In this document: positions 17,286-63,978 of the stretch, piece by piece
How the letters are laid out: every line of letters starts with the position of its first letter
How positions within the stretch are numbered: position 1 is the first letter of the stretch
Translations under genes and position numbers: made by a program
NCBI GenBank assembly: GCA_010356995.1
Contig: ML996688.1
Coordinates: forward strand, 372,001-436,000
Direction of reading: 5' to 3'
Length of the DNA stretch: 64,000 bases
From: Trichodelitschia bisporula
Taxonomy: Eukaryota; Ascomycota; Dothideomycetes; Phaeotrichales; Phaeotrichaceae
The notes under the pieces: model-generated
Database searches by the model: none
What the model was told of the DNA's origin: nothing
Seen by the model: only the letters and a program-made list of their open reading frames with translations

Positions 17286-17397
17286 TCCACCATCTTCCAC
17301 ACCACTCATACCACCCCACATCATTCAATATTATACACGCCAAAGCGAAGAGGTATCTATCTATATACCAACATCCGCAATTTGCGGAGACTTATAG

Positions 17398-17472
17398 ACA
17401 TTGGCTTCGGAGCCATTCTACCCTACTCGCAAGCGGTCTCACGATGCGATGGCAGTTGGAGAAAGAGGCTAA
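17398..17472 (+). pseudogene. Relic exon of the 58-63 kb Cys/His gene family
   Basis: After a CTTATAG acceptor-like site, the frame reads SEPFYPTRKRSHDAMAVGE and then a stop. Array unit A encodes AEPFYPGKRSHDAMAAGE in its third exon, and the decayed unit C the same with one change. The nucleotide match extends over about 60 bp (GAGCC.TTCTA.CCT through GATG..ATGGC.G.TGGAGA). This makes common ancestry certain enough to call, although the rest of the gene (the Cys/His exon) is not recognisable here. Confidence 0.6.
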
Positions 17473-18514: not shown

Positions 18515-18559
18515 TATGGGTAAGCCTTCTCAAGTCCCTACCCCCCTGCTGCTCATGGT

Positions 18560-18600
18560 TTGGCAAGGCCGATGCCACTCCATCCCCTCCTTGCTATTGA
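18560..18600 (+). pseudogene. Short match to exon 4 of the Cys/His family
   Basis: The stretch GCCGATGCCACTCCATCCCCTCC (inside 18560-18600) closely matches the exon-4 region of array unit A at 59104-59128 (CCGATGCCACTCCCATTCCC). It supports the view that 16.8-18.6 kb derives from one or more old family units. The match is short and could be shared low complexity. Confidence 0.35.
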
Positions 18601-29056: not shown

Positions 29057-30214
29057 ATGAAGCTCTCCGCTTTCCTCGCCCTCGCGGCGTCTTTTTCGAG
29101 TGCGCTTGCGCATTCCTGGGTCGAGCAGCTGAACGTCATCGACGACAACGGCACTTTCGTCGGCGCACCAGGCTATCCCCGCGGATACGTCCCCCGCACG
29201 AAGCCCGGTTTCGGCGATGCCTTGATGGTGCACCTCCTCCCCGCAGCATCGCGCTCCAAGATCGACGGCACAGATACCCTCTGCATGCCCTCCCAGCAGC
29301 AACCCGGCACCAACACACCCGACTTCCCCTCCCTCCGCGCCACCGCTGGTTCCTACATCGCACTGAAGTACCTAGAAAACGGTCACGTCTCCATGCCCCA
29401 GAACCCCCCGGGCAAACCAGAAGGCTCAGGCAAAGTGCACATCTACGTCACCACCTCCCCCTCACCAGACACCAAGCTCGTCGACGTCCTCAAATGGACA
29501 TCCACCGGCTCCTTCGCAACCGGCCGTCTCCTGACAACGCAAGACTTCGACGACGGCCGCTGCTACCAGCTCGCGCCCAGCGCGAAGAGCGTCCAGCGCC
29601 AGAAGGACTTCCCCGACCCGATCCCCGGCCAGACCGGCCCGCACGAGCAGTGGTGCGAGACGGACGTGCAGCTCCCCGCTGACACGCCGTCTGGCTCGCT
29701 GGCTATGTACTGGGTGTGGGAGTGGCCGACGATAGGCGCGGGCGCAAAGGACGAGACGTATACCACGTGCATGGATGTCGTCGTCGGCGATGCGAACGCC
29801 GTCAAGGCCGCGACGCCGGGCAAGGAAATCACGCCGCAGGACCCGCAGACCAAGGCCGTGCCGAGCTTCAAGCAGCGCGCTGCGGGCACGGATGCTGCTG
29901 CACCGCCGGCTGCGTCGGGTGCTGCTTCTGGTGCTGCTCCTCCTGCTGCCGCTCCGACAACGATGGTCACGAAGCCTGCGCCTGCTCCCCCTGCTGGCAC
30001 CCCCCCTGCTGCTCCTCCAGCTGCGCCTAATGCTCCTGGTGCGCCGGCCCCACCCGCGGGTGGTGCTGCACGCGCAACGGTCACAGTCACGCAGATGGTC
30101 ACAGTAACAGCCGGGTGCTACGGCGGCGGACGCACGGGCACGCCTCTCGGCCCCGTACCGCGCCCGACGGGTGCGGATGCGGGTCCGAGAAGATATAGCG
30201 AGTTCCGGGCCTAA
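29057..30214 (+). CDS. Secreted LPMO-like DUF7492 family protein
   Basis: Single-exon gene of 385 aa. Residues 1-18 form a signal peptide ending ALA, so cleavage would expose His19 (HSWVEQ) as the mature N-terminus. That is the hallmark of copper histidine-brace proteins. A second candidate brace residue is His110 (NGHVSMPQN). The segment MYWVWEWPTIGAGAKDETYT has the W-x-W plus E-x-Y spacing that precedes the axial Tyr in AA11-like lytic polysaccharide monooxygenases, here Tyr235. Cys76, Cys169, Cys200 and Cys238 could form disulfides. From about residue 276 an Ala/Pro-rich linker runs to a Thr/Val-rich segment (TVTVTQMVTVTAGC) and a basic tail. I see no CBM, GPI signal or membrane anchor. 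The family assignment is from memory of HSWVEQ proteins, and catalytic activity is inference. Confidence 0.82.
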   Translation: MKLSAFLALAASFSSALAHSWVEQLNVIDDNGTFVGAPGYPRGYVPRTKPGFGDALMVHLLPAASRSKIDGTDTLCMPSQQQPGTNTPDFPSLRATAGSYIALKYLENGHVSMPQNPPGKPEGSGKVHIYVTTSPSPDTKLVDVLKWTSTGSFATGRLLTTQDFDDGRCYQLAPSAKSVQRQKDFPDPIPGQTGPHEQWCETDVQLPADTPSGSLAMYWVWEWPTIGAGAKDETYTTCMDVVVGDANAVKAATPGKEITPQDPQTKAVPSFKQRAAGTDAAAPPAASGAASGAAPPAAAPTTMVTKPAPAPPAGTPPAAPPAAPNAPGAPAPPAGGAARATVTVTQMVTVTAGCYGGGRTGTPLGPVPRPTGADAGPRRYSEFRA

Positions 30215-31183: not shown

Positions 31184-33301
31184 CTAAGCCGACTTTTCAG
31201 TCTCCGTCTTCGCACTCTCCTTCTCTGGCGTCGCAGCCTTTGCAGGAGCAGCCTCAGACTCCGCAGGCTTCGCCTCTGTGGGCGCAACATCCGGTGTCGG
31301 GGCCTGGGCTTCCGCAGCAGCTGGGCTATCGGCCATCTCCACATCTTCATCCTTGACCTTTTCCTTGATGACTTCCTCAATAGCGGGAACCTCCGTCGGC
31401 GGTGCAGGCAGCGTGGCGGCATCCGGAGACTTTTGGGTTGGAGCAGGCGGCGACGCGACGCCCTCGTCAAGAAGCACCTCAGGCTGGGGAGTGACACTCG
31501 GCTGAGCGGTAACGGGGGGTGACGTCTTGCTCGGTTCAGATGCGCTCGTTTCCATAGCATCTGCCTCGATGACAGGAGTCTCCACTGGAGCTGCAGCCTC
31601 CGGCTCTGGCTCCTCGTCAATGTCCATCTCGTCCATGTCCTCATCATTTTCATCATCCGCGGCCGCATGAGCAGGGCTGCTGTGCACCGAGTGCTCGACG
31701 CTCCCGTTAGCGACGCTGGTATTACTGGATGCAGACGCCGTGCCAGCGCGGCTGGAGTCCGGCGTGTGCACGGCGGCGAGCTTCACCGACTCCTCGCGTA
31801 GGCTGGTGACGGTGGTGGTGCCGTTGCGGGCGACGAGGTGGGGCTCGCCGTCTGCGTCGATCTCGACGTCAGGCTGTGCGTGCGGATTCTCGTAGTCCAA
31901 GATGCCGACATTGCGCTGCCGCCACTCGCCGGGCTGTGAGCGGATGCCGTTGGCGCCGTCCATTTCTTCGTCCTCGCTCTCTTCGAATTCATCATCCCGC
32001 TCGATGCGCTTGTCCATCCGGTGCAACGTGTTGCGAACGTCCGGATGCTCGTCGGCGTCCAAGTCGTCTGCTTCGTCTTCCGCGTCGCTGTCCATGCCGT
32101 TGAGCATCGGGTTGCGGGGCACATCGGTCATCTGTGTGGACGGTGCGGCAGTGCGGCGGAGGTTGTCGATGACCTGGTTCTTGATCTTCTCGAGATACTC
32201 CGGGGAGTTGGCGTTATCCATATTTGACGGACGGACGTTCAGTTCGTAGTCCGGACCAAAGTACTCGTAGTAGTCGTTGTACGGAATTGCCGGATTCATT
32301 TCAACGCCCACCAGCTGACCAGTCTCGTACGCCCACGTCCGGGCAACGTTGCGCATCGTGTAACCACCACCCCCAAGAACCAGTGTGGGAAGGCCGAATG
32401 ACTTGACAAACTTGACGCAGTTGGCGTGCCCGTGCATGCTGAGGTTGAAGCAGCCGAGTCGATCGCCGGACAGGCTGTCACCGCCGCACTGGAGAACCAC
32501 CGCTTCTGGCTTGTAGTACTCCATCACCGCCCCAATGACAGGCTCGAACACATTCTTGTAGGTCCGGTCGGTGATGCCGTCACGAAGAGGGAAGTTGACG
32601 GCGTAGTTCTTGCCGGGACCGATGCCGATGTCGCGGAGCTCGCCAGTGCCAGGGAAGTACTCGCCATATTTGTGGAAGGAGCAGGTCATGACGCGATCAG
32701 TGGTGTAAAAGGCCTCCTCAACGCCGTCGCCGTGATGGACATCGATGTCGATGTAGAGAACGCGCTTGTGGAAGCGCAAGAGTTCGATGATACCGAGGAC
32801 GATATCGTTCACGTAGCAAAAGCCACTGGCTTCGCTCTTCTTCGCGTGATGGAGTCCGCCGGCCCAGTTGATCGCAATATCGCATTTTCCGCGGTTGAGC
32901 CTAGCAGCTCCCTCCATGCTGCCACCAGCGCTGATGCCGCAGAACTCAAACAACCCGTCGAATACGGGACAGTCGTCGCCAACATTGTATTTGCTCTGCT
33001 CCTTGGAGAAGTTGTCCATGTTGTCTGGCGTCACCTTTTGAAGGAACTCGACGTATTCGTCCGTGTGAAACTGCGTCATCTCATATTTTGTGGCTGGCTT
33101 CGCGCGGTAAATCTCCATCTTCTTGTAGCACCCGTAATTCATGATGAGGGAGTGCGCAACCCGAATGCGGTGCGGCTTCATTGGGTGCCCGGCGACATAG
33201 GCATAGTTTCCCACGTCGCTGTCGTAGAAGTACGCGACTTTCTTGCTACGAGTAGAGCCATTCGTCGACGTCTCGTCGACAGGCGGTCCCAACTCCGCCA
33301 T
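31184..33301 (-). CDS. RPD3: Class I histone deacetylase RPD3/RpdA
   Basis: Zinc-dependent lysine deacetylase, catalytic subunit of the Sin3/Rpd3 co-repressor complexes in the nucleus. Single-exon frame of 705 aa. The class I catalytic domain covers about residues 20-390 and shows the motifs [33 protein letters not shown] (His151-His152) and [16 protein letters not shown] (Asp187 and His189 as zinc ligands). It also has [16 protein letters not shown] and the closing [19 protein letters not shown]. The C-terminal 270 residues are a long acidic, Ser/Pro/Ala/Glu-rich extension. Yeast Rpd3 is only 433 aa. An extended tail is characteristic of filamentous-ascomycete RpdA, where it is reported to be essential. 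The tail ends in a Lys/Glu-rich segment. The start is the first ATG in frame. Confidence 0.97.
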
Positions 33302-37565: not shown

Positions 37566-40500
37566 ATGGCGCCTGGCCATAAGCGGAAGAGAGGGGAGGT
37601 GACGGGCTCGCAGGATCATGATGAATCCCCTCATCGATCATCTCCGCATCGACCGCAGAACCTCCCTCTTGCGCGACAGAGTGCGACACCCAACGCAAAC
37701 CGCGGCGGTAGGAGAGCTAGTGGACGCGGCAGCAGCAGAGGATCCACTCCACGCAGTCCCATCTCCTCTAATCCTCCTTCGGCCGCAACTAACTCGGCTC
37801 CTAACTCTGCCATGCTCCCACCTGCATCCAACCAACCACTCGTGCGTGCGGGCAGGCCATCAACGCCTGCTCAGGCAGATACGGCATCTCAGCGTCGCGA
37901 CTCCATATCGAAGGATTCTACGTATCATTTCGAGTACCTTTCGCCGGATAGACTGAAGGCATGGGACGCCGGAGGTCGACGCGAGCTTGTCGACATGGCC
38001 ATCAAGTTGCAACAGGCTGGAGATAACACGCCCCCGTTGGAAATTCTCGAGGAACTCATCAAAGCTACGCTTGGTGGTCAACTGGATGCACGGGAAGCGG
38101 GTTCAACTGTCAACGAGATCCTGGCTTCATCGGTTGACGAGGTGCTCTCAGTTCTCTTCCTCGACTGCCTGTCTGTCCTCACGGAGAACGACGTCAGCAA
38201 CCCAACTGCCATCCGCAACCTCCTCGTCAGCAGCGAAATCTCACCCGAATTGATTCGCGAGGTATTGGAGGCCCCGTTGCTTGCTTCACTCAACCTCGTT
38301 CGCAACACCTTTGAGCGTATGGGCATTCGCAATTCGACCAACGTCCTCTATCGCCAGTCCGCATACAACCTCCTCCGTGAGGAGACGGAAGGTTACGCCA
38401 AACTTATGACCGAGTACTTCACAGTTACCCACAAGTCGTCTCCAACGAACGAAGTAGTCAAGGAGATCACCGAGCGCGTTAAGGCTCTCATTGGTGCTTT
38501 CGACCTGGATGTTGGACGGGTCTTGGACGTCACTCTGGACGCTTTTGCGAGCATGCTTATTCGGCATTTCCGGTTCTTCATCAAGTTCCTTCGTGCCAGC
38601 GCCTGGTGGCCGAAGGAGAAGGTGATCCCTGGTGTTGTTCGCGGAGGGGATGAGCACACGTACCTCCCTTTGTGGGCTTCACCCCAATACTCTGGTTGGA
38701 GCTACTCGGACGGTGAAAAACAGAGTATTCTCGCTCAGAAAGAGATTCGGGATGCATCCTTCTGGGAGCGCGTCAAAGAAATCGGCATGGGCGCTTACTT
38801 TGAGCTTGGTGGCCGCCGCATACTGCAGGACGAGGGCCTGATTGCTGAAGGCGCGCCGGATCGGGAATGGATCTCCGCTACCGGGACGTTTCCGCCTTCC
38901 GGAAATCCGACGGCGGCCCAGCTTCTCGGGTTCAAACTTCGGTTCTACGCCTCTTCTGCTCGCGACGCTACTGATACGCTGCCGGAGAATCTCATCTGGG
39001 TCGCCGCTCTACTCATCAAGATCGGGTTCATTTCTTTACGAGACATCTATCCTCACCTCTATCCGTCCGATGAAGACATGGTGTCGGTCAAAGAGAAGCT
39101 GGAGAAGGAGAAGGCCGACAAGCAGTTGAAGAATCGTCCAGGCGGAGGCATGAATGCCTTGATGATGGCTGGCGCGCTCACGGACGACACTGAAGGTCCG
39201 TCCTCGCGTCTTCGCAATCTGGAGGTGCGACCGACGGCAGCAAAACCGGTCACCACAGCCGAGAAGACTGAACCCAAGGAGGAAGAGAAGGAGGTGCTCC
39301 CTGAGCCTGCCGACCAGAAGATTCAACTCTTGAAGAGCTTACTGCTCATCGGTGCGATCCCGGATGCCCTGTTCATCTTGGGAAAGTTCCCCTGGCTCGT
39401 CGAGTTGCATCCCGAAATCCGTCCCCTCATTCACCGGATTATCCACCACTCGATCAGCAAGGTGTACGAAGGCCATCCCTTGAACTCCCGCGAATCTGTG
39501 CAGGATCCGAAGCCTACTCCCATCAGCCTCCCCAACCTCCCTAAAGGCGAATTGAAGCTTGCCCCAACGCCACCTCGCAAAGTCAAATGGTGGGCTAAGC
39601 TTGACACTATCGACGCCATCGATGGGACGGACTACAGGTTCTACTACGATGATTGGATCGACAACGTTCCAGTCTGCCAGACGGTTGACGACCTGTTTCT
39701 CCTTTCCGACAGCCTGCTGAACTTGACCGGTGTCAAGCTTGGAGAGGACCCTGAGTTGCTCGCTAAATTCTCACGCATCGGCAAGCGAAACCTGGTCGAT
39801 GACCCATCGCCTTCGAACCAAACGCGATGGGCCGCCCTCGCCAAACGCCTCTTGGTCCCTGCTCTCAGCTTCACCAAGTCCAATCCCGGAGTTGTCAACG
39901 AAGTGTACGACCTCTTGAAACTCTTTCCCATCAGCACCAGATACAACATCTATGCGGAGTGGTACACCGGCCAGATATCCCGCCTTCCTGAAATGAAAGA
40001 AGCCTTTGATCAAGCGAGGGCGGAGACCAAGGATGTTCTCAAGCGCATCAGCAAGACGAACACACGAACTATGGCGCGCGCTCTGGCTAAGGTCGCCTAC
40101 GCTTCACCAGGCGTTGTATTCAGTGTCGCTCTTAACCAGATTGAGTCCTACGACAACCTGATCGAAGTCGTTGTCGAGTGCGCCAGGTACTTCACGTACT
40201 TGGGCTACGACGTCTTGACCTGGTCGCTGATGAGTGCCCTTGGCGGATCTGGCCGTAATCGCATGCAAGGCGATGGCATGCTCACAAGCTCCTGGCTGAA
40301 GGCGCTCTCCACATTCGCGGGCAGAGTCTTCCGGCGCTACTCCACCATGAACTCCACGCCTATCCTCCAGTACGTCGCATCACAGCTCCAGCAAGGCATA
40401 TCTACCGACCTTGAAGTCTTAGAGGAAATCATCACTTCCATGGCCGGGATTCGCGCCGACAGCAATTACAGTGAGGAGCAGGTGTTTGCCCTTGCTAGCG

Positions 40501-43500
40501 GCCCGGTGTTGCGTGATCAGACGCTTCGCTCAGTCTTCGATAAGCGCCATGAAGCGAAGGTGCAGTCAAAGCGGCTTATCAAGTCCCTGCTGGATTCTGG
40601 CCTGGCCGGCCTGCTCCTGGTCGCCATTGCTCAGGAGCGTCAGTACTATCCCTTCCGCGAGGCCTCTGAAGACGCACCCGTCAAGGTCATTGGGAACAAC
40701 TTCGACAAGCTGCATCGGGCCTTTATGCAGTATCTCGACATGCTGCGTACCAACCTCCCTGCGAAAGACTTTGATCAGACAGTCCCGACTCTACCTGAGC
40801 TCATTTCGAAATATGCTCTTCAGCCCGCTGTCGCCTACACAATCATGCGGCCGAGCATACAGCATCAGTTGGACGAAGCTGCGAAGGCGGATGCGCTTGC
40901 GCGGAAGCAGCCCAAGGCCCCGAATGGCGATGTCGAGATGTCGGATGCCCCTGCCCAGCCCCCCAAGGATTCCACAAACGGTGTTACTGAGGACGTAGCA
41001 ATGGTTGATGCTGAATCGCCCAAGGAGCCAGATCCTTTCCCCGCCCCCCTCCGAGCGGTCATGGATAGTCTGAAGGATGTCATGCCCGAAGATTCCTTTA
41101 CTCCGGTGGAGTTCTACGTACGCTTCTGGCAACTCAAACTCTCTGACCTGGAAGCCGGACCGTACGAACCGGAGAGCAAGCGTGTCAGTGAGCGCTACGG
41201 CGTAGTTGCTTCTGATCGCAGTGACATGTCCCCTGCTGGAATTCGCAAAAAAGAGGCCGAGAAGAAGCGGCTGAAGCAAATTCAAGACGACTTGAAATCG
41301 GAACTCTCGGCCAATTTCTCGCACATACAGACTTTCAAGAAGAAGATGAACCGCGAGAAGGATCACTGGCTTTCTCATATCCCAAAGAACAAGCAAGGAG
41401 CTCTCGCCTACGCCATCATCCAGGAGTGTCTGCTTCCTCGCGCCTTCCTCTCAGCGGAAGATGCCTACTTCTGCTCCAGGTTCATCTTCTGGGCTCATGG
41501 CATGGGAACGCCCGGATTTCGGACTATGTTCATCTTTGACCGGCTGTTTCGTCAAAACCAGCTCGTTTCCATTCTCTTCCAGTGCACTCCCCGCGAGGTG
41601 GAGAACCTTGCTCGCTTCCTCGATAAAGTGCTCGGAGAGCTTCGCGGATGGCATGCAGAGTGTAAGATGTATGAAGTCAAGGCGTGGGGTCTGCGCAAAG
41701 ACTTCCAGGGCTTCGCCGGTCGACTCGGACCCGATAGTGTCGAAGGGCAGCTCAGCTACGAGGATTTCCGACGTGCCCTCTTCAAATGGCACCAGAACAT
41801 CCATCTCGCCCTGAAAACCAGCTTTGAGAGTGGAGAGTACATGCATATCCGGAACGGCATCATTCTTCTGAAGGGTCTGCACAAGACTTTCCCTGCCGTC
41901 ACCTTCCACGGTAATCAGATCACCTCGCTTGTCACGCAGGTATCCAAGGAGGATACGCGGGATGATCTCAAACTTTCCGCTCTGTCCTTGCTTGCAGACC
42001 TCAAAAAGCAGGAGAAGTCCTGGCTCATACCGCAAGCTTTCCGCATTGTACGTCGTCCTCACATGCCTTCTCAACGCACTGACACTTTCCAGAACGATCA
42101 GCCTTCAGCGCCTTCTCAGGCAAAATCCGTTACCTCTATTGGGGCTACGGGGTCTGGCACACCAAATGCCGCTGCAAAAGCAGGGGCTTCGGCATCCGTG
42201 CTGCCGGCTAAAGCTTCAGCAACGTGAGTTACTCATCAATCAGCAACCGAATCGTCTAACCCGAGTATAGCAACGGCGCTAAACCTGGTGCTACCGGCAA
42301 GGAAGTCGAAGACGGTGAAATCGAGGATGCTAAGAAAGCAGAGGCTCCGAAGATTTCCGTTACCCAAGCAACCGGTTCGCAATCTACCGACTCTCAAGCT
42401 TCGTCTAAACCGCCGCCAGGAACCGCATCGCTAACGGCGACTGCCCCGGAGTTTAAACCATCAAACGAGGTGACGGCACCACAGAAGTCGGCCCAGCAGC
42501 CTTCGACGGCTTCGCAACCTTCGCAATCCGTGAAGCGCAATTCTAGACAAGCATCGCCGAATCCCGAGCCACCGCCGACTACCGGAGGCAACGCACAGCC
42601 CCTCCCCCCTCGAGCCGAACGCACCCTTTCATCGCGTCAGCCGCACGGACTACCGAACCGGCCAGATGGACCTCTCCCCCGCGAGCGCATTTCCCATCGT
42701 TTGGGCGAACCTCCGACCACGCACCCTTATCGGCACGACACTCGGCCCAACGAGCAGTTCGGTAGACTGGAGCGTCCGGACTTGCCGCGCGAGACTAGGA
42801 GCCGACACGACGAATCGCCTGGACATCGTAGCCGGCCTCGGAGTCCTGATCGAGCGGTCACCGAACGCGAGAGGCGTGAGCCGGGATGGGTTGGTCCTGA
42901 GGGGGTGAGGGAGCGTTTGGAACATTCGGATGGCCGCGCGCCTCGTATGCCGCCGCCTAGGGATTTGCTTGCGAGGGACCTTCCTCGGGACTTGCCTCCT
43001 CGGGACTTGCCTCCCCGCGATTTGCCTCCCCGTGAACTGCCTCCTCGGGATATGCCTCCTCGGGAGCTGCCTCCTCGGGAGTTACCGCCTAGAGAGCTGC
43101 CTCGGGATATTCGTACTAACGGTAGGGGTCCAGAGTGGAGCGGTCCACGGGACAGACAGGCTTCAGATGCTCAAGTCGCCTACGACGCGCGCGGCCGCAC
43201 TGGCTCTTCGGCAATGAATGCGGAGCGCGTAGCTCAAATCCAGCAACCGGACCGCCTCGACCGCAACATGAACGCCGGCCGCGGGCCTTACGATCGTGAT
43301 CCTAGAGGTCGGCCTGAGCCATCCTGGCCCGAGCGGGATGGCGATCCTAGAGTTCGGCCTGAGCCATCCTGGCCTGAGCGCGACGGTGGAGGACAGCGGG
43401 GTTCGCGGCCACAATCTCCACGTAGGTTTGATGATCGTGCCCAAATTTCGTTGCCTTCTCGTTTGGAACCGGTGCGCGACGAGCGCGGCGGTGAGAGGCT

Positions 43501-45386: not shown

Positions 45387-48011
45387 CTACTCCTCGTCCT
45401 CGGAGTCCCGCAACACAAGCGGCGGAATCTCAAACTCGTCATCCGAATCCGACCCGCTGTCATCCTGCCCCGCAGCCGGAGCCGCTTCCTGCCTCGCAGT
45501 CGCTTCCAGCCTCGCAGCCGTAGCCGCAGCCGCAACCGCATCCAGCCTCGCAACCACAGCCGCTTGCCGCCTGGCATCCTCCGCTTCCTCCCTCATAGCC
45601 GCAGCCTTAGCCGCCTCCCGCCTAGCATCCTCCTCCGCCTCCTGCTCGCGGGCAATATCCGCTTCCATGCTCGCCCACCCGCCGCTATCCAGCCCGGAAG
45701 CCCGAGCCGCTTCCCGCCTCGCATCATGCCGCCTCGCAGTTTCCCGCCTCGCGGCCTTAGTCGCAGCCGCAGTCGCAATCCGCTCCTGCTCCGTGGCCCA
45801 AATCTCAGACGAAAGCTCCGCTTGCCTCTCGGCCCATGCCGCAGAGGCTTCCGGATGCGCTTGCCACTCCGCTTGTCGCCGGGCGGCCGCCGATGCTTCG
45901 GCTGTCGGCGGTGCTGCGCGGGCGTCGTCGTTTGTCGCTGGGGTTTCGGATGTGAGGCGCGGGCGCTTTGCGTGTGGCAAAAGCGGTATTTCTGCCTCGC
46001 GCTTCCCCTCGGCCTCGGCGCTGGGGGAGCGCGGCGCGGACACGGCGTGGGTCGGAACACCCACGCCCTTGATCAAATCACCCCCGTCGTCACGAGCCGG
46101 CCTCGCCGCGAAAATATCCCTCGACAACTCGACTCTGCGTCCCGCGGTCGGTGGCGGAGGGAGCTCGGCTTCTGCCCCATCCAGCATATCATCGTCACTA
46201 TCATCCTCATCCCCGCCCACTTGAGTTCCAAACCGAATAACCGGCATTCGCGGGCGGAGCACGCCTTCCACTTGCACAGCCTCAGGGAATAATCTTGCTA
46301 GGAAGGGGAGCACGCTCGGCTTGCCCGGTGCGGGATTCAGGGCACTGGCCGTGAGGGCGGCGCAGTCCCGCGTCAGCACGGCCACGCGGTCTAGATCTGC
46401 GCGCGCGGTGGCGGAGACGTGGTGCGGGGGGAGTTTGGCGAGGAGGACGGGGAGGAGGGCGCGGGCTGCGTGGTGTAGGCCTGCGTATTGTGCTTTGGGT
46501 GCTGAGGGGGCGCGGGGCCCGGTCATGGCGTCTGGGTTTGCGGTGGCGGGGCCTTTGCCGGTTGATGGAGCGGAGGTGGTGGGGGGGAGCAGGTCGCGGG
46601 CGACGGATTTGAGGATCGGGTCCAAGGACACTACGAGAGGTTTGGGGAGGGAGGGGCCGATGATTGAAAGGAGGGGTGCGAGGAGGGTGTAGATTGCTGT
46701 GCGGAGGGGGGGGGCGGCGGTGGGGAAGAGCCAGGTTGTTGTTTCGAGGAGCGGGATGCAGGTGGACATTGAGCCGCTGTTGAGGCGGGTGAGGAGTGCG
46801 AGCCAGACTTCGAGAGCGGCGATTTGGATGCGCGGGAGGACGGTCCAGAGCTCATCGCGTTCCTGGCGGGAGATTTGGTCGTTGGGGCGGGTGCCGGGGG
46901 TGTTCTTTGAAGGCTTTTGGATGGAGAGGATGCGGGTTAGGAGGTCGGCAATGACGCCGATATCGAGGCTGGTTGGGGTTGAGAGGGTAGTTGAGACGTA
47001 GGCTCTGAGGATGAAGAGTTGTGTTGCTAGTCTGTGGCCGCCGGAAAGTATACCGGTCCAAGGGCGGAGGTGGAAGGGAGCAGCGGGTATGTGTAAGGGC
47101 GCGTCGGAGAAATGATCAGTAATGCGAGTGGAACCGGGGGGTCGGGTTGTAGATTGCCAGTCTTCCACTATCCCCCGGAAGACTTCGCCAGCTGTATCAT
47201 GGGTGCCGGAAACGAGGCCGCAAAAGTCCTCGTGCCATTCAACTGCCGCACGGTCTTTGGGAGCACACTGATGTAGCAAAACGTACAGGCGCTGGGCCAG
47301 ATTGCAAATTTCCTGAGGGATTGTATACAGTTCCTTTACGTCCAAGTGGTATGTGCCCTCGGACATAACAGCAGCCAGGAGTTTACGAAGCTTAGACAGA
47401 GCCGTCCGGAAAATGGTGGGATGCCGAGGAACAAGATGGGTGAAGCTTTCGAGAATGGGTTGCAAGAGGGCCCTCTGCACGCTGGTTTCCTGGATATTTG
47501 CCGTTTGGTAGTGGTGTAGGCAATGGTCCACAAATGGCTTGAGGGAGGGCGTCGTCATCTCTCGAACCAGCGTAGGATAGTCGCGCGTCAGCATGAAGAT
47601 TCTGGTCAGCGTGATTATACACAGCTTCTTCGTCGTCGCGGGATCCGGCTTGTTTAAGATGCCAACCATTCCGCGGACCCAGGCGGCACATTTTGCGTCT
47701 TGGAGTATTTCCCATCCTCCCACCTCAACCGTGCTCTTGATAATGACCACTGCCGCCCAACGCGCCTCAACGGCGCGGTCCTGTAGCAATGTCGAGAGCT
47801 GAGTCTTGAACTTGTGCAACACCACTGGGGCATCTCCGTTTTCCTTTGCGAAAGCATTCTGGCCAGAAGAAAGGAGTTGTCCGCAGGTCACCAGCTGGGA
47901 TGCGATATGGGGTGCGAGTTGCGGGAGCTGTGTCGCCGGTGTAGAGGACAACCGGTAGGCAATTGCTCGCAAGGAAGACACCTCCGAGTCTATGGCGTGC
48001 GGAGGAGCCAT
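45387..48011 (-). CDS. RIX1: Pre-rRNA-processing protein RIX1
   Basis: Scaffold of the Rix1-Ipi1-Ipi3 complex that acts with Rea1/Mdn1 in late 60S ribosomal subunit maturation in the nucleoplasm and in ITS2 processing. Single-exon frame of 874 aa. The N-terminal 200 residues match the RIX1 domain (WAAVVIIKSTVEVGGWEILQ, then CAAWVRGMVGILNKPDPATT) and are followed by ARM/HEAT-like helices to about residue 560. A linker with an acidic patch (GGDEDDSDDDMLDGAEAE near 605) precedes a long Ala/Arg/Glu-rich region with repeated ARREAA-type units, probably one long charged helix. The last 25 residues are acidic (DSGSDSDDEF). Convergent with THO2, with about 360 bp between their stop codons. Confidence 0.9.
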   Translation of the reverse strand: MAPPHAIDSEVSSLRAIAYRLSSTPATQLPQLAPHIASQLVTCGQLLSSGQNAFAKENGDAPVVLHKFKTQLSTLLQDRAVEARWAAVVIIKSTVEVGGWEILQDAKCAAWVRGMVGILNKPDPATTKKLCIITLTRIFMLTRDYPTLVREMTTPSLKPFVDHCLHHYQTANIQETSVQRALLQPILESFTHLVPRHPTIFRTALSKLRKLLAAVMSEGTYHLDVKELYTIPQEICNLAQRLYVLLHQCAPKDRAAVEWHEDFCGLVSGTHDTAGEVFRGIVEDWQSTTRPPGSTRITDHFSDAPLHIPAAPFHLRPWTGILSGGHRLATQLFILRAYVSTTLSTPTSLDIGVIADLLTRILSIQKPSKNTPGTRPNDQISRQERDELWTVLPRIQIAALEVWLALLTRLNSGSMSTCIPLLETTTWLFPTAAPPLRTAIYTLLAPLLSIIGPSLPKPLVVSLDPILKSVARDLLPPTTSAPSTGKGPATANPDAMTGPRAPSAPKAQYAGLHHAARALLPVLLAKLPPHHVSATARADLDRVAVLTRDCAALTASALNPAPGKPSVLPFLARLFPEAVQVEGVLRPRMPVIRFGTQVGGDEDDSDDDMLDGAEAELPPPPTAGRRVELSRDIFAARPARDDGGDLIKGVGVPTHAVSAPRSPSAEAEGKREAEIPLLPHAKRPRLTSETPATNDDARAAPPTAEASAAARRQAEWQAHPEASAAWAERQAELSSEIWATEQERIATAAATKAARRETARRHDARREAARASGLDSGGWASMEADIAREQEAEEDARREAAKAAAMREEAEDARRQAAVVARLDAVAAAATAARLEATARQEAAPAAGQDDSGSDSDDEFEIPPLVLRDSEDEE

Positions 48012-56089: not shown

Positions 56090-56899
56090 TCACGGTGCTG
56101 ATGCCCCAACGCCAGCAGCATCCGCATCCGCGTCAGCATCCAGCAAATCCGTAACCCTCACCGGGCGCTCCAGAACCCATGCCCCACCCGGCCTCAGCTT
56201 TTTATAGTATTCCTCCTCAAAAACCGCCTTCGTGAACCCAAGCACCGAATACCACTCCCAAACCTCCACATTCCCCTCCCACACATGCGCCGACACCGTC
56301 GTAACGCCATATTCACGGGCCGCATGAGCAATGACACGGTGCAGCAGCGCACTTGCAATCCCATGCCCGCGGAACGGCGATAGCGTAGCTATAGTAGCCA
56401 CATAAAGCGAGGGCGCCGCATCCGCAACGGGCTGCCCAGAGCGCTTGCTCCGCACCTCAGCCGCGGGCGAGACCGCTAGCAGCCGGCAGCGGATGCCGGC
56501 GACGACGCGCGGCTTGGAGGCGGGTGTGTCGGCCCAGAGGGCCACCGCGGAGAGGCTGGCGACCACGGGGTCGGAGAGGATTTCGGCGTAGAACCGTTCT
56601 GAGTAGGGGACGGGGAGGATGACGCTGTTGAGGCGCCGGAAGGAGGTGAGGGTTGAGGGGGCTATGGGGGCGAGGGTGACGTTGGAGGGGAGGGGGCGGC
56701 GTGGTCGGTATGTGGTGGTGGGTTGAGGGGGGGGTTCTTGGGAGGGTGGAGGTGGCGGGGTTTGAGGCGGTGGTTCTGCTGCTGGTGCTTGTGGAGGGGA
56801 GCTGGTTTGCGACGCGCTTGGAGGTGGAGTTTCGGGATTCGAGGGAGGTATTGGCGGGTTGGCCTTTGAAAGCCATGATGTTAGCGAAGTCTGAACCAT
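56090..56899 (-). CDS. NAA50-like N-alpha-acetyltransferase (GNAT)
   Basis: GNAT-fold acetyltransferase, probably acetylating protein N-termini with acetyl-CoA. Single exon, 269 aa. The catalytic part (about residues 75-245) aligns by eye with human NAA50: RRLNSVILPVPYSERFYAEI corresponds to the NQVIFPVSYNDKFY region, LYVATIATLSPFRGHGIASA contains the RxxGxA acetyl-CoA loop, and WEWYSVLGFTKAVFEEEYYK matches the FYRKFGF...KKNYYKR end. The N-terminus differs. It starts MVQTSLTSWLSK, which resembles a PCNA-interacting (PIP) box (Q-x-x-L-x-x-W), followed by about 55 residues of Pro/Ser/Gln-rich linker. The C-terminus has an Asp-Ala repeat. Start codons of this gene and of MIC19 are about 230 bp apart and divergent. 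Confidence 0.82.
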   Translation of the reverse strand: MVQTSLTSWLSKANPPIPPSNPETPPPSASQTSSPPQAPAAEPPPQTPPPPPSQEPPPQPTTTYRPRRPLPSNVTLAPIAPSTLTSFRRLNSVILPVPYSERFYAEILSDPVVASLSAVALWADTPASKPRVVAGIRCRLLAVSPAAEVRSKRSGQPVADAAPSLYVATIATLSPFRGHGIASALLHRVIAHAAREYGVTTVSAHVWEGNVEVWEWYSVLGFTKAVFEEEYYKKLRPGGAWVLERPVRVTDLLDADADADAAGVGASAP

Positions 56900-57779: not shown

Positions 57780-58440
57780 GCCAAATTCTCCAGTCTGGAC
57801 ATACAACATAGAGTATTGTACAATATCATGACCGTCATACCCTGGGGTCTGTTCTGTCCGGCTTCGTCTCTTGTATTGCATTCACACCATTAGAGGCTAC
57901 TATACTTGTCTCTCATGCACGACCTTATTGCACCACCTACCCCCTATCTCATATCCCTTTGTATTTACAGTTATGCTAATGGTTTCGAAGGGCTTCGAAG
58001 GGATCGCTCCATTGTCATTCAGGGGGTATAGCAAAATTCTTGGTGGACCTTACTGCCTCTGGACGGTAAGTGGAAGCTGTGATGGAGCAAATTTTCAACT
58101 AATATCTGATAGCAGTGGCTCATGCTTTTGTCCCAACTCATCTCTGCAACACTTCGTATATGCTGAATGAGGTCGGCAAGGTATGACGGCTGCGTACCTT
58201 CCCCAAGGGCTCCCCCGGAGGACTGCATCGTACCTTCCCCCAACAACACACGCGCTTCTCCATATACCATATGTATACTAGCGCCGTCGGCTTCCACTTA
58301 GCGAGTCAAGTCACGGGCTTCCAAGTCGAGGAGTATAAATACCTTCAACTTCTCCTTCTTTTTACAACCTCCGTACATCTCCTACAGCGAACTCTCTCTG
58401 TCTTCTGAATTCCCCTGTCCCGCAGCGAAAAAAAGCACGA
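57780..58440 (+). promoter_or_regulatory. Leader and promoter region of array unit A
   Basis: From about 58085 this stretch repeats the sequence upstream of unit C (blocks GCTTTTGTCCCA, CATCTCTGCAACACTTCGTATATGC and GACTGCATCGT.CCTTCCC). It contains the ATACTAGCGCC box at 58276, an imperfect copy of the CTC..AGTCGAGG inverted repeat at 58318-58331 and the TATAAAT box at 58334. No coding region before 58449. Confidence 0.6.
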
Positions 58441-58448
58441 GAACAAAA

Positions 58449-59209
58449 ATGGGACCGAAGGGTAAGTCCACTCCCATACATTACCCCTTAATCATTCTCA
58501 CACTTACTCCAAAAGCTGCCAAGTTCGGGGCGGATCTCCCGCCGGACCTCGTCTGGCCTAAGGAGATAGAGCTCGGGCTCGGGCCCTGCCGGGTTGTGAA
58601 CGACATGGATGGTGTTGTCTGTAGCTGTATTCGCGGCTACAGCTCCGTTCGTCTGTCAACCAGCACCTCGACAACCCACCTGAGGCGCCGTTGTGATCAC
58701 TGCCAACACCTGATGGTCTGGCATAGGGAGCGCAGTAAGTCTCTCCCATATATTCATATTTCATCTCATGCCTAACTCTCGCAGCTGCCGACGAGAAGAC
58801 TGCGGAGCCGTTCTATCCTGGCAAACGCTCTCATGATGCCATGGCGGCTGGAGAGACAAGCCCGGATGACCAGGAGGCGAAACGTGTCTGTACTGATGGT
58901 GTCACTGGCAATGCCGAGGATGCTGGTCCTACGACTGATGATAACTGCAATGCCAACCTCACGGTGGATGGTGTTGATCAGGCCAATGCGGGCGCTCCTT
59001 CTGGCACATCTACAGATTCTCTCAACTTCTCTAGTTAGTACCTTCGCTATGCAATAGACGCCTCGCTGACGTGACTGCAGCTTCTGCAGTGTGTGACTCG
59101 CAAACCGATGCCACTCCCATTCCCTCCCGCAAGTACCCCTTTCCCCCTTCATAGATTCTTTTCTAAATTAACCATAGCTTCCCACGACACTTCGGCGACC
59201 GAGGGTTAG
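58449..59209 (+). CDS. Cys/His small-protein family, unit A
   Basis: Unrecognised family, largest member (186 aa). The exons are 58449-58461, 58516-58734, 58785-59033, 59081-59128 and 59178-59209. Every intron is phase 1. The last starts with GC (GCAAGT...CATAG), a GC-AG intron supported by the same arrangement in unit B. The core, encoded by exon 2, reads LGLGPCRVV, then VVCSC, then CDHCQHLMVWH. These seven Cys/His residues are mostly shared with the other units and could bind zinc. Exon 3 adds AEPFYPGKRSHDAMAAGE and an acidic Asp/Thr/Asn-rich segment absent from the other array units apart from C. No signal peptide or membrane segment. The promoter has a TATAAAT box at 58334, about 115 bp before the ATG. 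Function unknown. Confidence 0.68.
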
Positions 59210-59449
59210 AAGTTGGTGGAAGGGGCTTAGCAAAGCCGATTGCAACAAGCACCAACCCCTAGATAGTTTGTTCTAGCTTTCTCCAGCATGAATACAATCC
59301 TCTGTCTCTGACTCAACCATCTGCGACTGCCTGCGGTATTTAGCAGTGCCCCAAGGCCGTATCATTCCTTTCCCAGAGGTATCCCGCGCCCTTCTCTTCT
59401 ATACACATACTAGCGCCCTCCGCTTCTACTAACCGAGCCAAGACTCGAG

Positions 59450-59463
59450 CCTCGAAATCGAGG
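59450..59463 (+). promoter_or_regulatory. Inverted repeat upstream of unit B
   Basis: CCTCGAAATCGAGG, a nearly perfect inverted repeat. It is followed by AGAGATATTT, where the other units have a TATAAA or TATAAG box. It is preceded by the shared box ATACTAGCGCC at 59408. Probably a binding site for a dimeric activator at a fixed distance from the TATA position. Confidence 0.5.
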
Positions 59464-59589
59464 AGAGATATTTCCAACTTCTCCATTTCTCTACAACCAT
59501 ACATCTCGAACAACCACTTCTCCGCTCTCTACGGAAACCCGCCCGCCTAACACGAGAATAAGAGCAGGAAAACTAAAATTGCTGTAGAA

Positions 59590-60076
59590 ATGGCATCGAA
59601 GAGTAAGTCTACTCCCATACCTATCAACCATTCTCACCCCTACCCCAGAAGCGATCGAGCTCCCCACCGATTTCCCGAAGGACCTCGACATTCCCGAGGA
59701 GGTGGGGTTCGATCTGGGAGCCTGTCGGTTTGTGTTCCCCACGGGCGGTACCACTTACACCTGTAGTTGTGGTTACTGCGTCATCCCTCTGAACGATGAT
59801 ACATTGGCCGCCATCCTCGAGCACCACTGCTTGCACTGCGGTCATATGATGGCATGGTATGGCTCGCCCAGTGAGTACTTTCGCTATACAATAGACACTT
59901 TGCTGACTTGACTACAGCCTCCGCGGTACGCCACGAGCATACGCCGGGGGGTGCCACTCACCCCTCTTCTGGCAAGTACCCCTTTCCCCCTTCATAAACG
60001 CTTGGCGAACTTGACTATAGCTGTTCGCGACGCTTCGGTGAACGCTCCGAAAGCTAAAGAGCAGAATGGCCAGTAG
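59590..60076 (+). CDS. Cys/His small-protein family, unit B
   Basis: Family member of 114 aa. The exons are 59590-59602, 59649-59870, 59918-59971 and 60021-60076, all introns phase 1. The last intron has a GC donor (GCAAGTACCC...GACTATAG) at the same place as in unit A. The core reads FDLGACRFVF, then YTCSCGYC, then CLHCGHMMAWYG. It has one more Cys after the C-x-C than unit A. The long PFYPGKRSHDAMAAGE exon of unit A is missing, so exon 2 is spliced directly to the piece equivalent to exon 4 of A. The C-terminus ends KAKEQNGQ, resembling the Gln/Glu ends of units D and E. The acceptor before exon 2 offers two AGs three bases apart (CAG or AAG), both in frame. Confidence 0.66.
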
Positions 60077-60490
60077 TTCTAGGTTACGTATGATGTGAGT
60101 CATCTGCGTTGTACCGTAGATTGGGATGCGCTTTCTCCAACTCTAGCTTCGCGGATGCACATCGGTTAAGTTCTAGTCCTTCAAATGAAAAAAATGGTCT
60201 TTACTCTCCAGATGCTGATATGCCTTGTGCTTTGCCCATGAAATATATATAGGGAGCAAATCTTCAATTAACAACTGGTAACAACGGCTCGAGCTTTTGT
60301 CCCATCTCATCTCTGCAACACTTCGTATATGCAGAATAGGTTCTTGGCAAGGGACGGCCGCTGAAAAACATGCCCTGAAGACTGCCCTAAGGAACTGCAT
60401 CGTTCCTTCCCTAAGAACATCCTCCGCACTTTTACTCTTCCACATATATACTAGTGCCCGCCGCTTCTACTCACCGAGCCAGGCCCCGAG

Positions 60491-60514
60491 CCTCAAAGTC
60501 GAGAGGTATAAATA
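60491..60514 (+). promoter_or_regulatory. Promoter core of decayed unit C
   Basis: CCTCAAAGTCGAG (an imperfect inverted repeat) is followed at 60507 by TATAAATA. The box ATACTAGTGCC lies at 60446 upstream. The promoter is better preserved than the coding part. Confidence 0.45.
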
Positions 60515-60666
60515 TCTCCAACTTCTCCTTCTTTTTACAACCTCCGTACATCTCCTACAACCTCCGTATATATCTCCTACAACCTCCGTATATCTTCTAC
60601 AGCGAACTCTCTGCCTTTGAATTCTCCCACCCTTCAAACGCAATAACAAGAGCACGATCTATAGAA

Positions 60667-61122
60667 ATAGGGCCGAAGGGTAAGTCTACTCCTACACATC
60701 CCCCCTCGGGCATTCTTATGCTTACTCCACAAGCCGTCAAGTTCAAAGACGGATTCTCCCCGTGGACCTTATCTGGCCTGATTAGATAGAGATCGATCGG
60801 GCTCGGGGCCTTCCGGGTTGTTAACCCCATTGATGGTGCTGTCTATACCTATATACGCGGCCACAACACCGCTCCTCCGTCAACCGGCACCTCAGTAAAC
60901 CAACCAACGCGCCCTTATAAGTACTGCCAGCACCTATATAGTCTGGCATATGAAGCGCAGTAAGTCTCTCGCATATCTTCATGTTTCATCTCGAACCTAA
61001 TTGTCATAGCTGCCGATGAGATGGCTGCGGAGCCGTTCTATCCTGGCAAACGCTCTCATGCTGCGATGGCGGCTGGAGAGACAGGCCCGAATGGCCAGGA
61101 ACCGAAGACCGAGGGTCAGTAG
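60667..61122 (+). pseudogene. Cys/His small-protein family, unit C (decayed)
   Basis: Aligned to unit A, the 13-nt first exon (60667-60679), exon 2 (60734-60959) and exon 3 (61010-61122) keep their splice sites, but the gene is broken. The start ATG is ATA. The two cysteines of the VVCSC motif are Tyr codons (TAT), and the CQHLMVWH segment is shifted out of frame. Most of these changes are TG to TA, the pattern expected from RIP-like C-to-T mutation on the other strand. Exon 3 is intact in frame (AEPFYPGKRSHAAMAAGE) and runs to a stop after EGQ. Only about 40% of positions in exon 2 are unchanged, so decay is either old or clustered. Confidence 0.7.
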
Positions 61123-61358
61123 TTGGTAGAACGGGCTTAGCAAAGCCGATTGCACCAAACACCAACCCCTAGATCGTTTGTACTAGCTTTTGCCATCATC
61201 AATTCAACCCTATGTCGCTGACTCAGCCCATCTGTGATTGCCTGAGAACAGTGCCCCAGGGACTGCATCCTTCCTTCCGCAAAGATGTCCTCCGCACTTC
61301 TCCACTTCCATATATATATTAGCTCCGTCTGCTTCTATTCACCGCCCCAGGCCCCGAA

Positions 61359-61380
61359 CCTCGAAGTCGAGGAGTATAAG
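61359..61380 (+). promoter_or_regulatory. Inverted repeat and TATA box of unit D
   Basis: A perfect inverted repeat CCTCGA-AG-TCGAGG at 61359-61372, followed two bases later by TATAAG at 61375. This is the cleanest copy of the family promoter core. The diverged box TATTAGCTCC lies near 61316. Confidence 0.6.
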
Positions 61381-61499
61381 TATGTCCAACTTCCACATTT
61401 TCTCACAACCATACACCTTCCCACAACTCTCCACCGTCTCCATCCCCCGCTCCCCCATCACAAGCACCAAAGCACCGAAAACACAAAATCACCGCAGAG

Positions 61500-61982
61500 A
61501 TGGAAGCAACTGGTAAGCCCCACTCCCACCCACCCCCTGAAATCATTCTCACCCTAGTACCAGAAGCGCCCAAGCCCAGCACGCCCAACACGCCCGATAC
61601 GCCCAGCACCGTCGGCCCGGCCATGAACCTCGACCCCCCCGACAAGATGGAGATCAGCCTGGGAGCCTGTCGGGTGGTCGTCCTTACGGATGGTGTGGCC
61701 TGCACTTGTACCCGCGGCGTCTGTACCGCCCGTGTGGACACCTCGACGCTGGTGTCTATCCTGGAGGACTTCTGCATCAACCGCCATCACATGATAAAGT
61801 GGCATGCCTCACACAGTGGCGAGTATGGTGAGCATTTGTATATCTTTGTGTTAGCTTTCGTACTTAAGATTTATATGTGACTCCGGTACCTTCTCGGGCG
61901 TACCCCTTTCCCCCTGAATGGACGCTGAGCTGACGTGATCATAGGCTTCAAGGAACAGGAGCAGAAAGACCAGGAGCAGTAG
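61500..61982 (+). CDS. Cys/His small-protein family, unit D
   Basis: Family member of 104 aa. The exons are 61500-61512, 61564-61827 and 61945-61982, with phase-1 introns. The N-terminal linker is Pro/Thr-rich (PSTPNTPDTPSTVGP). The core reads ISLGACRVVVLTDGVACTCT, RGVC, then CINRHHMIKWH, so the second Cys of the last pair is Arg here, next to two His. The last intron is long (117 nt) and includes the region homologous to exon 4 of unit A. That region has lost its donor (GGCGTACCCC instead of GCAAGTACCCC) and contains stops, so the exon has been dropped. The end KEQEQKDQEQ is Gln/Glu-rich. Confidence 0.66.
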
Positions 61983-62507
61983 GGCCAGTAGCCTGGATGG
62001 ATTGACAGGTTAAGGCGCTGGGGCGTTGCTTGACCCGGGTTGCCAGTCCTTGTGAGGTTATGATGTGGTCCTGTGCGTTGCACTACGGGTGCGGATGCGG
62101 ATGCGGTTTACCCATCTCGGCGCCCTGGAATTGCACATCAGCTTGATTCTAGGCCTCAGAATAAACAGTGGTCTTGAATTGCTAGATGCTGATATGCCTT
62201 GTGCTTGTTAGACGATCGTGTAATGTGAAGGTATGGAGGCTTATCAAAGCTGAGTGCACCAAAACCGGACCCTTTGATAGTTTGTTCTAGCTTTCTCCAT
62301 CATCCATACAATCCACTACCTCTTGACTGAACAAGCTTCGATTGCCACAGCCCTTGCCAAAAAACGGCGGCTGCAAAACACTCCCCAAAGACTACCCCCA
62401 GGACTGCAACGTTCCTTTCACCAAAGGACATCCTCTACGCTTCTCCTCTTCTACATACGTACTAGCGTCCTTCGTTTCAACTACGTATTCACGAGCCAAG
62501 TCACGAG

Positions 62508-62531
62508 CCTCGACGAGTCGAGGAGTATAAG
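62508..62531 (+). promoter_or_regulatory. Inverted repeat and TATA box of unit E
   Basis: CCTCGA-CGAG-TCGAGG at 62508-62523, with the same arms as in unit D but a 4-bp spacer instead of 2. TATAAG follows at 62526. The box GTACTAGCGTCC lies near 62459. Confidence 0.55.
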
Positions 62532-62654
62532 TATATTCGACTTAATATTTTCTAGAACCAAACATCTTCGACAACAACTCATCCACCGTCAACATCCCCC
62601 CACTCCCCCAACAACAAGAACCAAAGCCGGCGAAAACGCAAAATCGCCGCAGAA

Positions 62655-63122
62655 ATGGAGGTGACGGGTAAGTCTCCTACTCCTATATATCCCCCTTAAC
62701 CACTGTAATTCCCTATCTCCAGACGCGTCCAAGCTCAACACTGGCGGCAAGCCCAACGCCAGCGGCCCGGCTAAGGATCTCAACCTCCACGACAAGATGG
62801 AGGTAAGCCTAGGAGCCTGTCGGGTCGTCGTCGTCACGAACGGTGTGGCCTGTGCGTGCACCCGCGGCCTCTGCTTCCCCCGTGTGAACAACAGCACCAG
62901 GGTGTCCATCATGAAGCACGTCTGTATCAACTGCCATCATATGATGGAATGGCATGACTTGTACAGTGGCGAGTATAGTAAGTATCTTTATATCTACATG
63001 TCAGCTTTTCGTATATACAATTCTAGAACTAACAAGTACCCACTTTCCCCCTGAATGGACGCTGAGCTGACTTGACTATAGCCTCCCACGCCTCCATGGA
63101 ACAAGGGCAGCAGGGCCAGTAG
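62655..63122 (+). CDS. Cys/His small-protein family, unit E
   Basis: Family member of 102 aa, closest to unit D. The exons are 62655-62667, 62723-62977 and 63082-63122, with phase-1 introns (GTAAGT...CTCCAG and GTAAGT...GACTATAG). The core reads VSLGACRVVVVTNGVACACT, RGLC, then CINCHHMMEWH, with the full set of Cys and His. As in unit D, the exon-4 equivalent is skipped. Its donor is ACAAGT where units A and B have GCAAGT. The end is SHASMEQGQQGQ. D and E are nearly the same length and share the linker pattern, so they probably arose from the latest duplication. Confidence 0.68.
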
Positions 63123-63922
63123 GTTGGGTGGATTTGACGAATCATGGCGTTGAGGCGCGATTACTTGCGGAGTGTGGCTTCTTAGACAGTGACCGTCATT
63201 TGGATGGCTTGATCTAGGTTGCGGGAATTCTTTGTGTGCTTTTGATGCGTGTGATGGTGTTGAAGGTGTTGCTAGACCTGAGCCGCCGGTGTGCGTGTGC
63301 TTATGAGGAGTCAGTTATGTTGCAACATGGATACGAATGCCGTTTACCCGTCTCCAGCGCCATAGAGACGCACATCGGTTAAGTCTTCAAAATCTCCGAA
63401 TGCTGATATGTCTTGTTTTTGCCCATGAAACACATGTAGTAGCTGCCGGCAGGTACGTGGAGTGATGTATCATTACTGATGTCAACATCAAGCTCGCTTG
63501 ACATGTTAGCCACTCCTTCCTAGCGTTCGTGGCGTCTTCCCTGCCCGTGGGTTAGGTATCCTTCCCAAAGCGAAGGACAACACCTGCCCCACGAACCAGC
63601 ACTCTCAGGCCCTCAAGCACTCGACCGCGGGACCAAAAATATACACAATAAGACCTGAATTTCAGAGTTGCACCTAGCCTTTGGGCCGCACCCTATCGTA
63701 GAGCGCTATATACAAAGCCGCCGCCCTACCAACCGTCAATTGGCAGACCGCGCAAGCTCACACTCAGCACAATCGCACATCTCGAAAACACGCAACACCG
63801 TCTACGCTATCCGCGCAAAAAACTTTTATCATCTTCCATCATCTCATCTCCGCTAATCACACAAAATTTCCTCCCAACAGTTACAATCCCCATCAAACGC
63901 CCCGCACCAATTCTCTCTGCGT
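63123..63922. other. 3' end of the array and flank
   Basis: Up to about 63445 the sequence still matches the 3' flanks of other units (blocks GTTTACCCGTCTC, GCACATCGGTTAAGT, GATGCTGATATG and TTGCCCATGAAA). Beyond it no repeat or gene is recognised until the partial exon at the window edge. Confidence 0.5.
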
Positions 63923-63978
63923 CTACTCCAGCGGAATGCCCTCATACTCACCGTACCCCAGCGCAAGATTCATATTCT
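63923..63978 (-). CDS. Possible last exon of a minus-strand gene (partial)
   Basis: On the minus strand, a GCTAAT branch-like site at 63990-63995 and an acceptor GGGCAG lead into a frame ending NMNLALGYGEYEGIPLE and TAG at 63923-63925. The peptide looks natural, but it is too short to name. The rest of the gene would lie beyond the window. Confidence 0.35.

Follow-up and report, generated by a model that had tools for sequence, protein, structure and literature searches.

A tandem array of small, fast-evolving genes around a putative zinc-ribbon-like exon in Trichodelitschia bisporula

A 64,000-nucleotide stretch of the genome of the ascomycete Trichodelitschia bisporula (assembly GCA_010356995.1, contig ML996688.1, positions 372,001 to 436,000; hereafter the window) carries five related units, U1 to U5, arranged head to tail on the plus strand between 58084 and 63440. 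Four of them encode small proteins with a shared cysteine and histidine signature in exon 2, and the third, U3, is dead. The favoured explanation, to which we give a probability of about 45%, is that the genes form a tandem family, evolving by birth and death, whose small intracellular proteins centre on one zinc-ribbon-like domain in exon 2. The array is probably ordinary in kind: a local, unnamed, fast-evolving gene family and not a new kind of system. A first-pass annotation of this DNA had pointed to the units; the exon encoding EPFYP...KRSHDAM, the promoter palindrome and the two-gene block described below go beyond it.

Layout and growth of the array

The units were delimited by self-comparison of the window. 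Their start codons lie at 58449 (U1), 59590 (U2), 60667 (U3, mutated), 61500 (U4) and 62655 (U5), and successive starts are separated by 1141, 1077, 833 and 1155 bases. Profiles of the promoter (E 2e-60 to 2e-66) and of exon 2 (E 6e-51 to 9e-60), which were built from these same copies, recover all five units, as does a profile of the tail. None of the three profiles has a match outside the array below E 0.5 in the 64 kb. Five same-strand units, as first annotated, are thus borne out by the profiles and by the spacing of 833–1155 bases. The left edge had been placed at 57900; homology within the array starts instead at about 58084, with the upstream region and promoter of U1 (58084–58448, plus strand). 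The right edge is the end of the U5 3' flank (63393–63439, plus strand), a segment that shares homology with the final part of the U2 flank (60205–60252).

The array has expanded in tandem, gaining some copies by duplication and losing others. The U1 region 58084–58881 matches the U3 region 60253–61106 at 73%, the tail of U1 together with the promoter of U2 (59197–59506, plus strand) is homologous to the tail of U3 and the promoter of U4 (61107–61418) at 77.7%, and the flank behind U2 (60089–60232) matches that behind U4 (62059–62206) at 70%. These matches indicate that a two-gene block, A-B, was doubled. In addition, the spacer before U4 (61134–61210) is repeated before U5 (62238–62314) at 79%, and U4 (61254–62025) matches U5 (62396–63157) at 71%, which implies one further duplication of unit length. 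Unequal crossing-over may have converted A-B into A-B-A'-B', after which a duplication of the spacer and B' would have produced B'' as A' fell into decay. The units could instead be cargo or relics of a mobile element and not host genes, as their common flanks and an exon copied 41 kb away (see below) might suggest. However, neither the array nor any single unit is bounded by terminal inverted repeats (the search listed 8 weak pairs), the units are split genes with their own promoters in a single orientation, and unequal crossing-over accounts for the growth. We regard a mobile origin as most improbable.

Gene models and the exon 2 signature

All gene models were drawn from the sequence alone. 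U1, of A type, comprises five exons on the plus strand (58449–59209; exons 58449–58461, 58516–58734, 58785–59033, 59081–59128 and 59178–59209) and encodes 186 amino acids. The three other readable genes are of B type, also on the plus strand: U2 (59590–60076; exons 59590–59602, 59649–59870, 59918–59971 and 60021–60076; four exons, 114 amino acids), U4 (61500–61982; exons 61500–61512, 61564–61827 and 61945–61982; three exons, 104 amino acids) and U5 (62655–63122; exons 62655–62667, 62723–62977 and 63082–63122; three exons, 102 amino acids). The spliced models agree with the range of 102–186 amino acids given at first annotation. The first exon is 13 bases long in each modelled gene, and all 11 predicted introns of the four units are in phase 1. 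The last intron in U1 and in U2 is GC-AG; the GC donor was assigned because the homologous tail requires it.

Residues invariant across the four proteins include LG-x-C-R-x-V, one cysteine of the C-x-C region, and a C, an H and a W. All four share three cysteines and one histidine as metal-capable residues (C37, C50, C72 and H77 in U5). Of the signature first reported, U1, U2 and U5 retain C-x2-C-x-H-x-M-x-W in full, whereas U4 reads C-x2-R-x-H-x-I-x-W, with Arg in place of the second CxxC cysteine and Ile in place of Met. Likewise, C-x-C is found in all four proteins, although in an ungapped comparison the U2 pair lies two residues later and has only one cysteine in common with the others.

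U3 (60253–61122, plus strand) is a dead A-type copy. Its start codon is ATA, its exon 2 carries three frame-breaking insertions relative to U1 (2, 4 and 1 bases) plus a stop, and its core cysteine positions are occupied by Phe or Tyr; its exon 3 frame remains open. Repeat-induced point mutation, counted as C-to-T before A or G-to-A after T, was considered as the cause and not established (23/62 in the U1-to-U3 direction against 10/47 in reverse, Fisher p 0.09). The 5' leader of U3 also contains a tandem repeat of about 20 bases, TACAACCTCCGTATATCTCC, in 3.2 copies (60536–60601), which is expanded only in this unit.

Selection on the coding frames

Purifying selection on the coding frames is present but weak. 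The ratio of nonsynonymous to synonymous substitution rates (dN/dS), estimated by the Nei–Gojobori method (NG86), ranges from 0.48 (U4-U5) to 0.73 (U2-U5) in the six pairs of live units. None is above 1, and positive selection was not shown by dN/dS in these six pairs. YN00 gave 0.39 for U1-U2, the sole pair computed with it. For comparison, neutral change was simulated with differences equal in number to those observed but scattered at random, in exons 1 and 2 only for U1 and U2. At least one stop appeared within the aligned codons in 83–92% of the simulated copies; the four spliced frames have none. Amino acid identity exceeds the simulation at p<0.05 in four of the six pairs (p 0.001, 0.0045, 0.026 and 0.044), and the two other pairs fit neutral change at the protein level (p 0.135 and 0.193). 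The excess identity and the open frames therefore indicate that selection is acting, though weakly.

The same data bear on a doubtful but serious alternative, in which the units are decaying relics of a once useful family under relaxed selection, with U3 furthest gone and U4 next. The death of U3, the two signature residues lost in U4, the range of dN/dS, the two pairs that fit neutral change and an additional broken exon 3 at 17402 are all consistent with decay. On the other hand, four spliced frames are open and free of stops, four of six pairs lie above the neutral expectation, splice sites and promoter are retained, and exon 2 of U4 and U5 is more alike than their flanks.

This last result comes from a comparison of exon 2 with the pooled flanks. 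Exon 2 is less alike than the flanks in U1-U4 (0.57 against 0.71, p 0.001) and in U2-U4 (134/222 against 291/417, or 0.60 against 0.70, p 0.018), more alike in U4-U5 (0.76 against 0.68, p 0.031), and not clearly different in U1-U2, U1-U5 and U2-U5. Faster change of coding sequence than of flanks was therefore rejected as a general rule, since it applies to only two of the six live pairs and is reversed in a third. Taken together, dN/dS, the neutral simulation and the exon-flank comparison support the fast evolution first proposed for this family.

The two pairs with divergent exon 2 could suggest that diversifying selection acts on proteins with an effector or conflict role (incompatibility, drive or host interaction), with flanks homogenised by gene conversion. 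Such roles are common among fast-evolving tandem families. Lineage-specific genes of Neurospora are reported to cluster with HET genes (PMC10684091), and this also counts for such roles. However, the three pairs without a clear difference and the reversed U4-U5 pair argue against them. In U2-U4, dS is 0.90 and synonymous sites, too, have diverged further than the flanks, so that the difference is not a pure amino acid effect; flank conversion or promoter constraint is therefore as likely there as diversifying selection. Moreover, dN/dS is never above 1, HET or other conflict-type families are absent from the Pfam matches of nine open reading frames (ORFs) of the window, and a crude hydropathy test found no signal-peptide-like, strongly hydrophobic stretch at the N-terminus (highest hydropathy of any 11-residue stretch -0.08 to 1.21 within residues 1–35). 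Effector or conflict roles are thus quite unlikely.

The A-type exon 3 module and its distant copy

The A type carries a second conserved element, located outside the zinc-ribbon-like core. This exon 3 module (58785–58884, plus strand, from a profile search and the U1/U3 comparison) encodes EPFYPGKRSHDAMAAGE. Between U1 and U3 it is 90% identical (87/97 aligned bases), while exon 2 reaches 76% (165/218; Fisher p 0.004); the rest of the 249-base exon 3 of U1 has no counterpart in U3. The first-pass view of a constant core with freely diverging tails fits the far tails but not this exon, which has changed less than the core between U1 and U3. The module has no Pfam family above cut-off (HYR_4C, E 0.077, 13.6 bits against 27).

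A broken copy of the module lies about 41 kb from the array at 17402–17489 on the plus strand (nhmmer E 7.8e-12), where the peptide reads EPFYPTRKRSHDAMAVGE. Of the 18 codons compared, 8 differ synonymously and 3 non-synonymously between U1 and this copy, and the first, second and third codon positions carry 1, 3 and 9 changes respectively; the synonymous excess has a null p of 0.0006 or 0.002, depending on gap placement. For U3 and the distant copy the counts are 7 synonymous and 4 non-synonymous (p 0.004). Conservation of this peptide is the clearest sign in the family of past constraint at the protein level. The exon 2 and promoter profiles have no match near the distant copy. The broken module is contained in a degenerate gene-like stretch at 17041–18600.

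A promoter palindrome

The pattern CCTCGA-N(0-6)-TCGAGG occurs at three sites in the 64 kb, all within the array and immediately upstream of where TATA lies or would lie in U2, U4 and U5, with spacers of 2, 2 and 4 bases. They are CCTCGA-AA-TCGAGG upstream of U2 (59450–59463), CCTCGA-AG-TCGAGG followed by AG-TATAAGTA upstream of U4 (61359–61372), and CCTCGA-CGAG-TCGAGG followed by AG-TATAAGTA upstream of U5 (62508–62523). The expectation was 0.08 sites per simulated 64 kb (60 simulations), to be read with the three observed sites not as three independent events, because the copies were inherited by duplication. The U1 promoter has TCGAGG-AG-TATAAATA from 58326, and the left arm of its palindrome is degraded. 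TATAA is found in four of the five units. The claim that each unit has its own promoter holds in that the promoter profile matches all five, although U2 has lost TATAA. The palindrome is a good candidate for the site of a dimeric activator.

Fold of the exon 2 domain

No Pfam family passes the curated cut-off for any of the four proteins. Below threshold, U1 matches DUF6274 (E 0.048) and U2 matches Cas12f1-like TNB (E 0.14, or 0.09 with exon 2 alone) and DUF1390 (E 0.44 and 2.3); U4 and U5 gave no sub-threshold rows. The initial statement that no described family bears this signature thus holds against Pfam. Novelty is stated here relative to Pfam, PDB, IMG/VR and GTDB contigs, and a literature search. 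Pattern matches numbered 10 in IMG/VR viral contigs and 6 in GTDB genome contigs, with none confirmed in either, and no such family was described in the titles and abstract openings among the literature matches listed.

Three lines of comparison point to a zinc ribbon. First, sub-threshold matches to zinc ribbons place the knuckles in register. With U2 alone, PDB gave two matches, archaeal Rpo12 at the top (E 0.47) and a dioxygenase (E 1.5), and U2 aligns with Rpo12 over 30 residues without a gap, CxxC and CxxCG falling in register. None of 20,000 full shuffles equals the U2-Rpo12 score, and a fraction of 0.0001 does so when the cysteines are fixed. The matches of U2 to Cas12f1-like TNB and of the four-row profile to ribosomal bL31 (E 0.7 and 1.6) point the same way. 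Second, in both of two low-confidence structure models the CxxC knuckle is flanked by a strand before and a strand after, and the ZitP zinc finger ranks second in the Foldseek list for U2. Third, in profile comparison by hhalign, an Rpb12-type profile, two of whose three rows were entered by hand, ranks first (P 0.0006, probability 28%), followed by bL31 (P 0.0095, probability 4%), both ahead of the GRF zinc finger discussed below. On these grounds we hold a zinc ribbon to be the likeliest fold of the exon 2 domain, at somewhat better than even odds, and zinc binding by the proteins is plausible.

Several observations weigh against the family as we read it. No sequence or fold match to a zinc ribbon is significant in Pfam, PDB, profile comparison or Foldseek. 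The shuffle test of U2 and Rpo12 was post hoc, on a pair chosen after the match had been seen, and the other members score 6–11 against Rpo12 where U2 scores 51. The structure models are poor (predicted local distance difference test 60.9 with U5 first and 53.5 with U2 first), and neither has a Foldseek match below E 1 (best E 1.6 and 1.5); antibody domains make up most of the list for the first model. The first knuckle is not strictly conserved, being shifted in U2, and U4 is without one CxxC cysteine. In the palindrome, U1 has a broken left arm and U3 an altered one, and the shared origin of the intact sites and the two pairs that fit neutral change belong to the same side. Finally, of the eight PDB sequences that the four-row profile returned at E up to 10, the top two are TGF-alpha, an EGF-like growth factor (E 0.028 and 0.037), ahead of a metalloproteinase fragment, two betacellulin sequences, PEC-60 and the two of bL31.

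These top matches raise the question of an EGF-like disulfide fold, in which C-x10-C-x-C-x2-G-[YVL] would form half of an EGF-like domain with disulfide-bonded cysteines; TGF-alpha (E 0.03) and betacellulin (E 0.4) have the same 10-residue spacing. However, the crude hydropathy test detected no secretion signal, the first of the two close cysteines is absent from U2, and such a fold has no place for the CxxC-x-H-x-M-x-W half. No EGF family is among the Pfam rows at E up to 10, where HMMER filters drop most rows above 0.1. A complete EGF-like domain, secreted and with six conserved cysteines, was rejected, since only part of the spacing is present and the N-terminus is not hydrophobic. The half-domain version is improbable.

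A possible mechanism

In a zinc-ribbon-like family, the exon 2 domain would consist of a variable first cysteine knuckle, a second CxxC knuckle between strands and an H-x-M-x-W end. One zinc ion may be held by the invariant C, C, C and H, together with the second cysteine of CxxC in the proteins that have it. Like small zinc ribbons, the domain could serve as a nucleic-acid- or protein-binding adaptor, whose partner would be chosen by the variable N-terminus and tail. The A type may carry EPFYPGKRSHDAMAAGE as an extra conserved docking peptide, absent from the B type. A single dimeric transcription factor on CCTCGA-N2/4-TCGAGG beside TATA would activate the units together. A broader version of this picture, which we consider unlikely, is an undescribed modular fungal family with a variable zinc-ribbon-like exon, one subtype of which adds the separately conserved EPFYPxxKRSHDAMAxGE exon that formerly also occurred in another gene 41 kb away, with one palindromic TATA-proximal switch and diversification of the recognition type.

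Fungal genomes contain many unnamed, fast-changing small gene families, and this one offers testable handles: the promoter element predicts co-expression, and the invariant C-C-C-H set predicts one metal site. The conserved peptide may be a better marker of relatives than the fast-changing core, and the family becomes searchable if other fungi contain intact relatives that carry it.

Neighbouring genes and other features

Among the nine window ORFs scanned, Pfam identified a DUF7492 protein (29057–30214, E 6.8e-85) with a hydrophobic, signal-peptide-like start, a histone deacetylase (31184–33301, minus strand), THO complex subunit 2 (37566–42227), RIX1 (45387–48011, minus strand) and a GNAT acetyltransferase (56090–56899, minus strand). 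These genes and the short introns suggest a filamentous ascomycete. The immediate upstream neighbour of the array, on the plus strand, consists of frame pieces that begin MGADQSKP... at 57133 and end ...CLRLNDRRPLDCWKEKEAFKKAVARLEQDFVDRTLR at about 57774. The stops between the two pieces would be an intron, and the C-terminus has C-x10-C; presumably this gene resembles MIC19 of the MICOS complex. At 63923–63973, MNLALGYGEYEGIPLE followed by a stop may be the C-terminal end of a minus-strand gene that runs beyond the window. A 48-base, coding-looking tandem repeat (ARKPTKRSENK-like) lies at 22152–22269 in an unrecognised ORF.

A non-coding RNA reading of the array was rejected, as no Rfam family reaches the gathering threshold in the 64 kb. 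One weak row resembling SCARNA18 (62112–62189, minus strand, within the 3' flank of U4; E 0.11 and 23.4 bits, where the cut-off is 40) is probably chance.

Comparison with known systems

The lineage-specific gene clusters of Neurospora resemble the array in being clustered fungal genes of undescribed function with few recognisable domains; those clusters are reported to aggregate near telomeres (PMC10684091). In contrast to them, no HET domain occurs in the nine ORFs scanned here, and the upstream neighbour is core-gene-like.

At the level of the domain, Rpb12/Rpo12, bL31 and Cas12f-type TNB share with the array proteins two cysteine knuckles about 16–21 residues apart, the second being CxxC-[GHQ]. 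In the two low-confidence models, predicted strands lie on either side of the second knuckle of the array proteins, and U2 aligns with Rpo12 ungapped. The GRF zinc finger of NEIL3, APE2 and ZCCHC4, which we take to be Pfam PF06839, also has a Cys knuckle, a later Cys and a W near its end. However, the array proteins lack the GR-x-F motif, and this finger was rejected as a candidate (hhalign P 0.12, probability 0.5%, over a 9-column stretch; absent from the Pfam rows). Compared with Rpb12/Rpo12, bL31 and TNB, to which the scores are insignificant, the array proteins have a variable first knuckle and variable tails, and they add a conserved LGxCR[VF]V before the knuckles and H-x-M-x-W after them.

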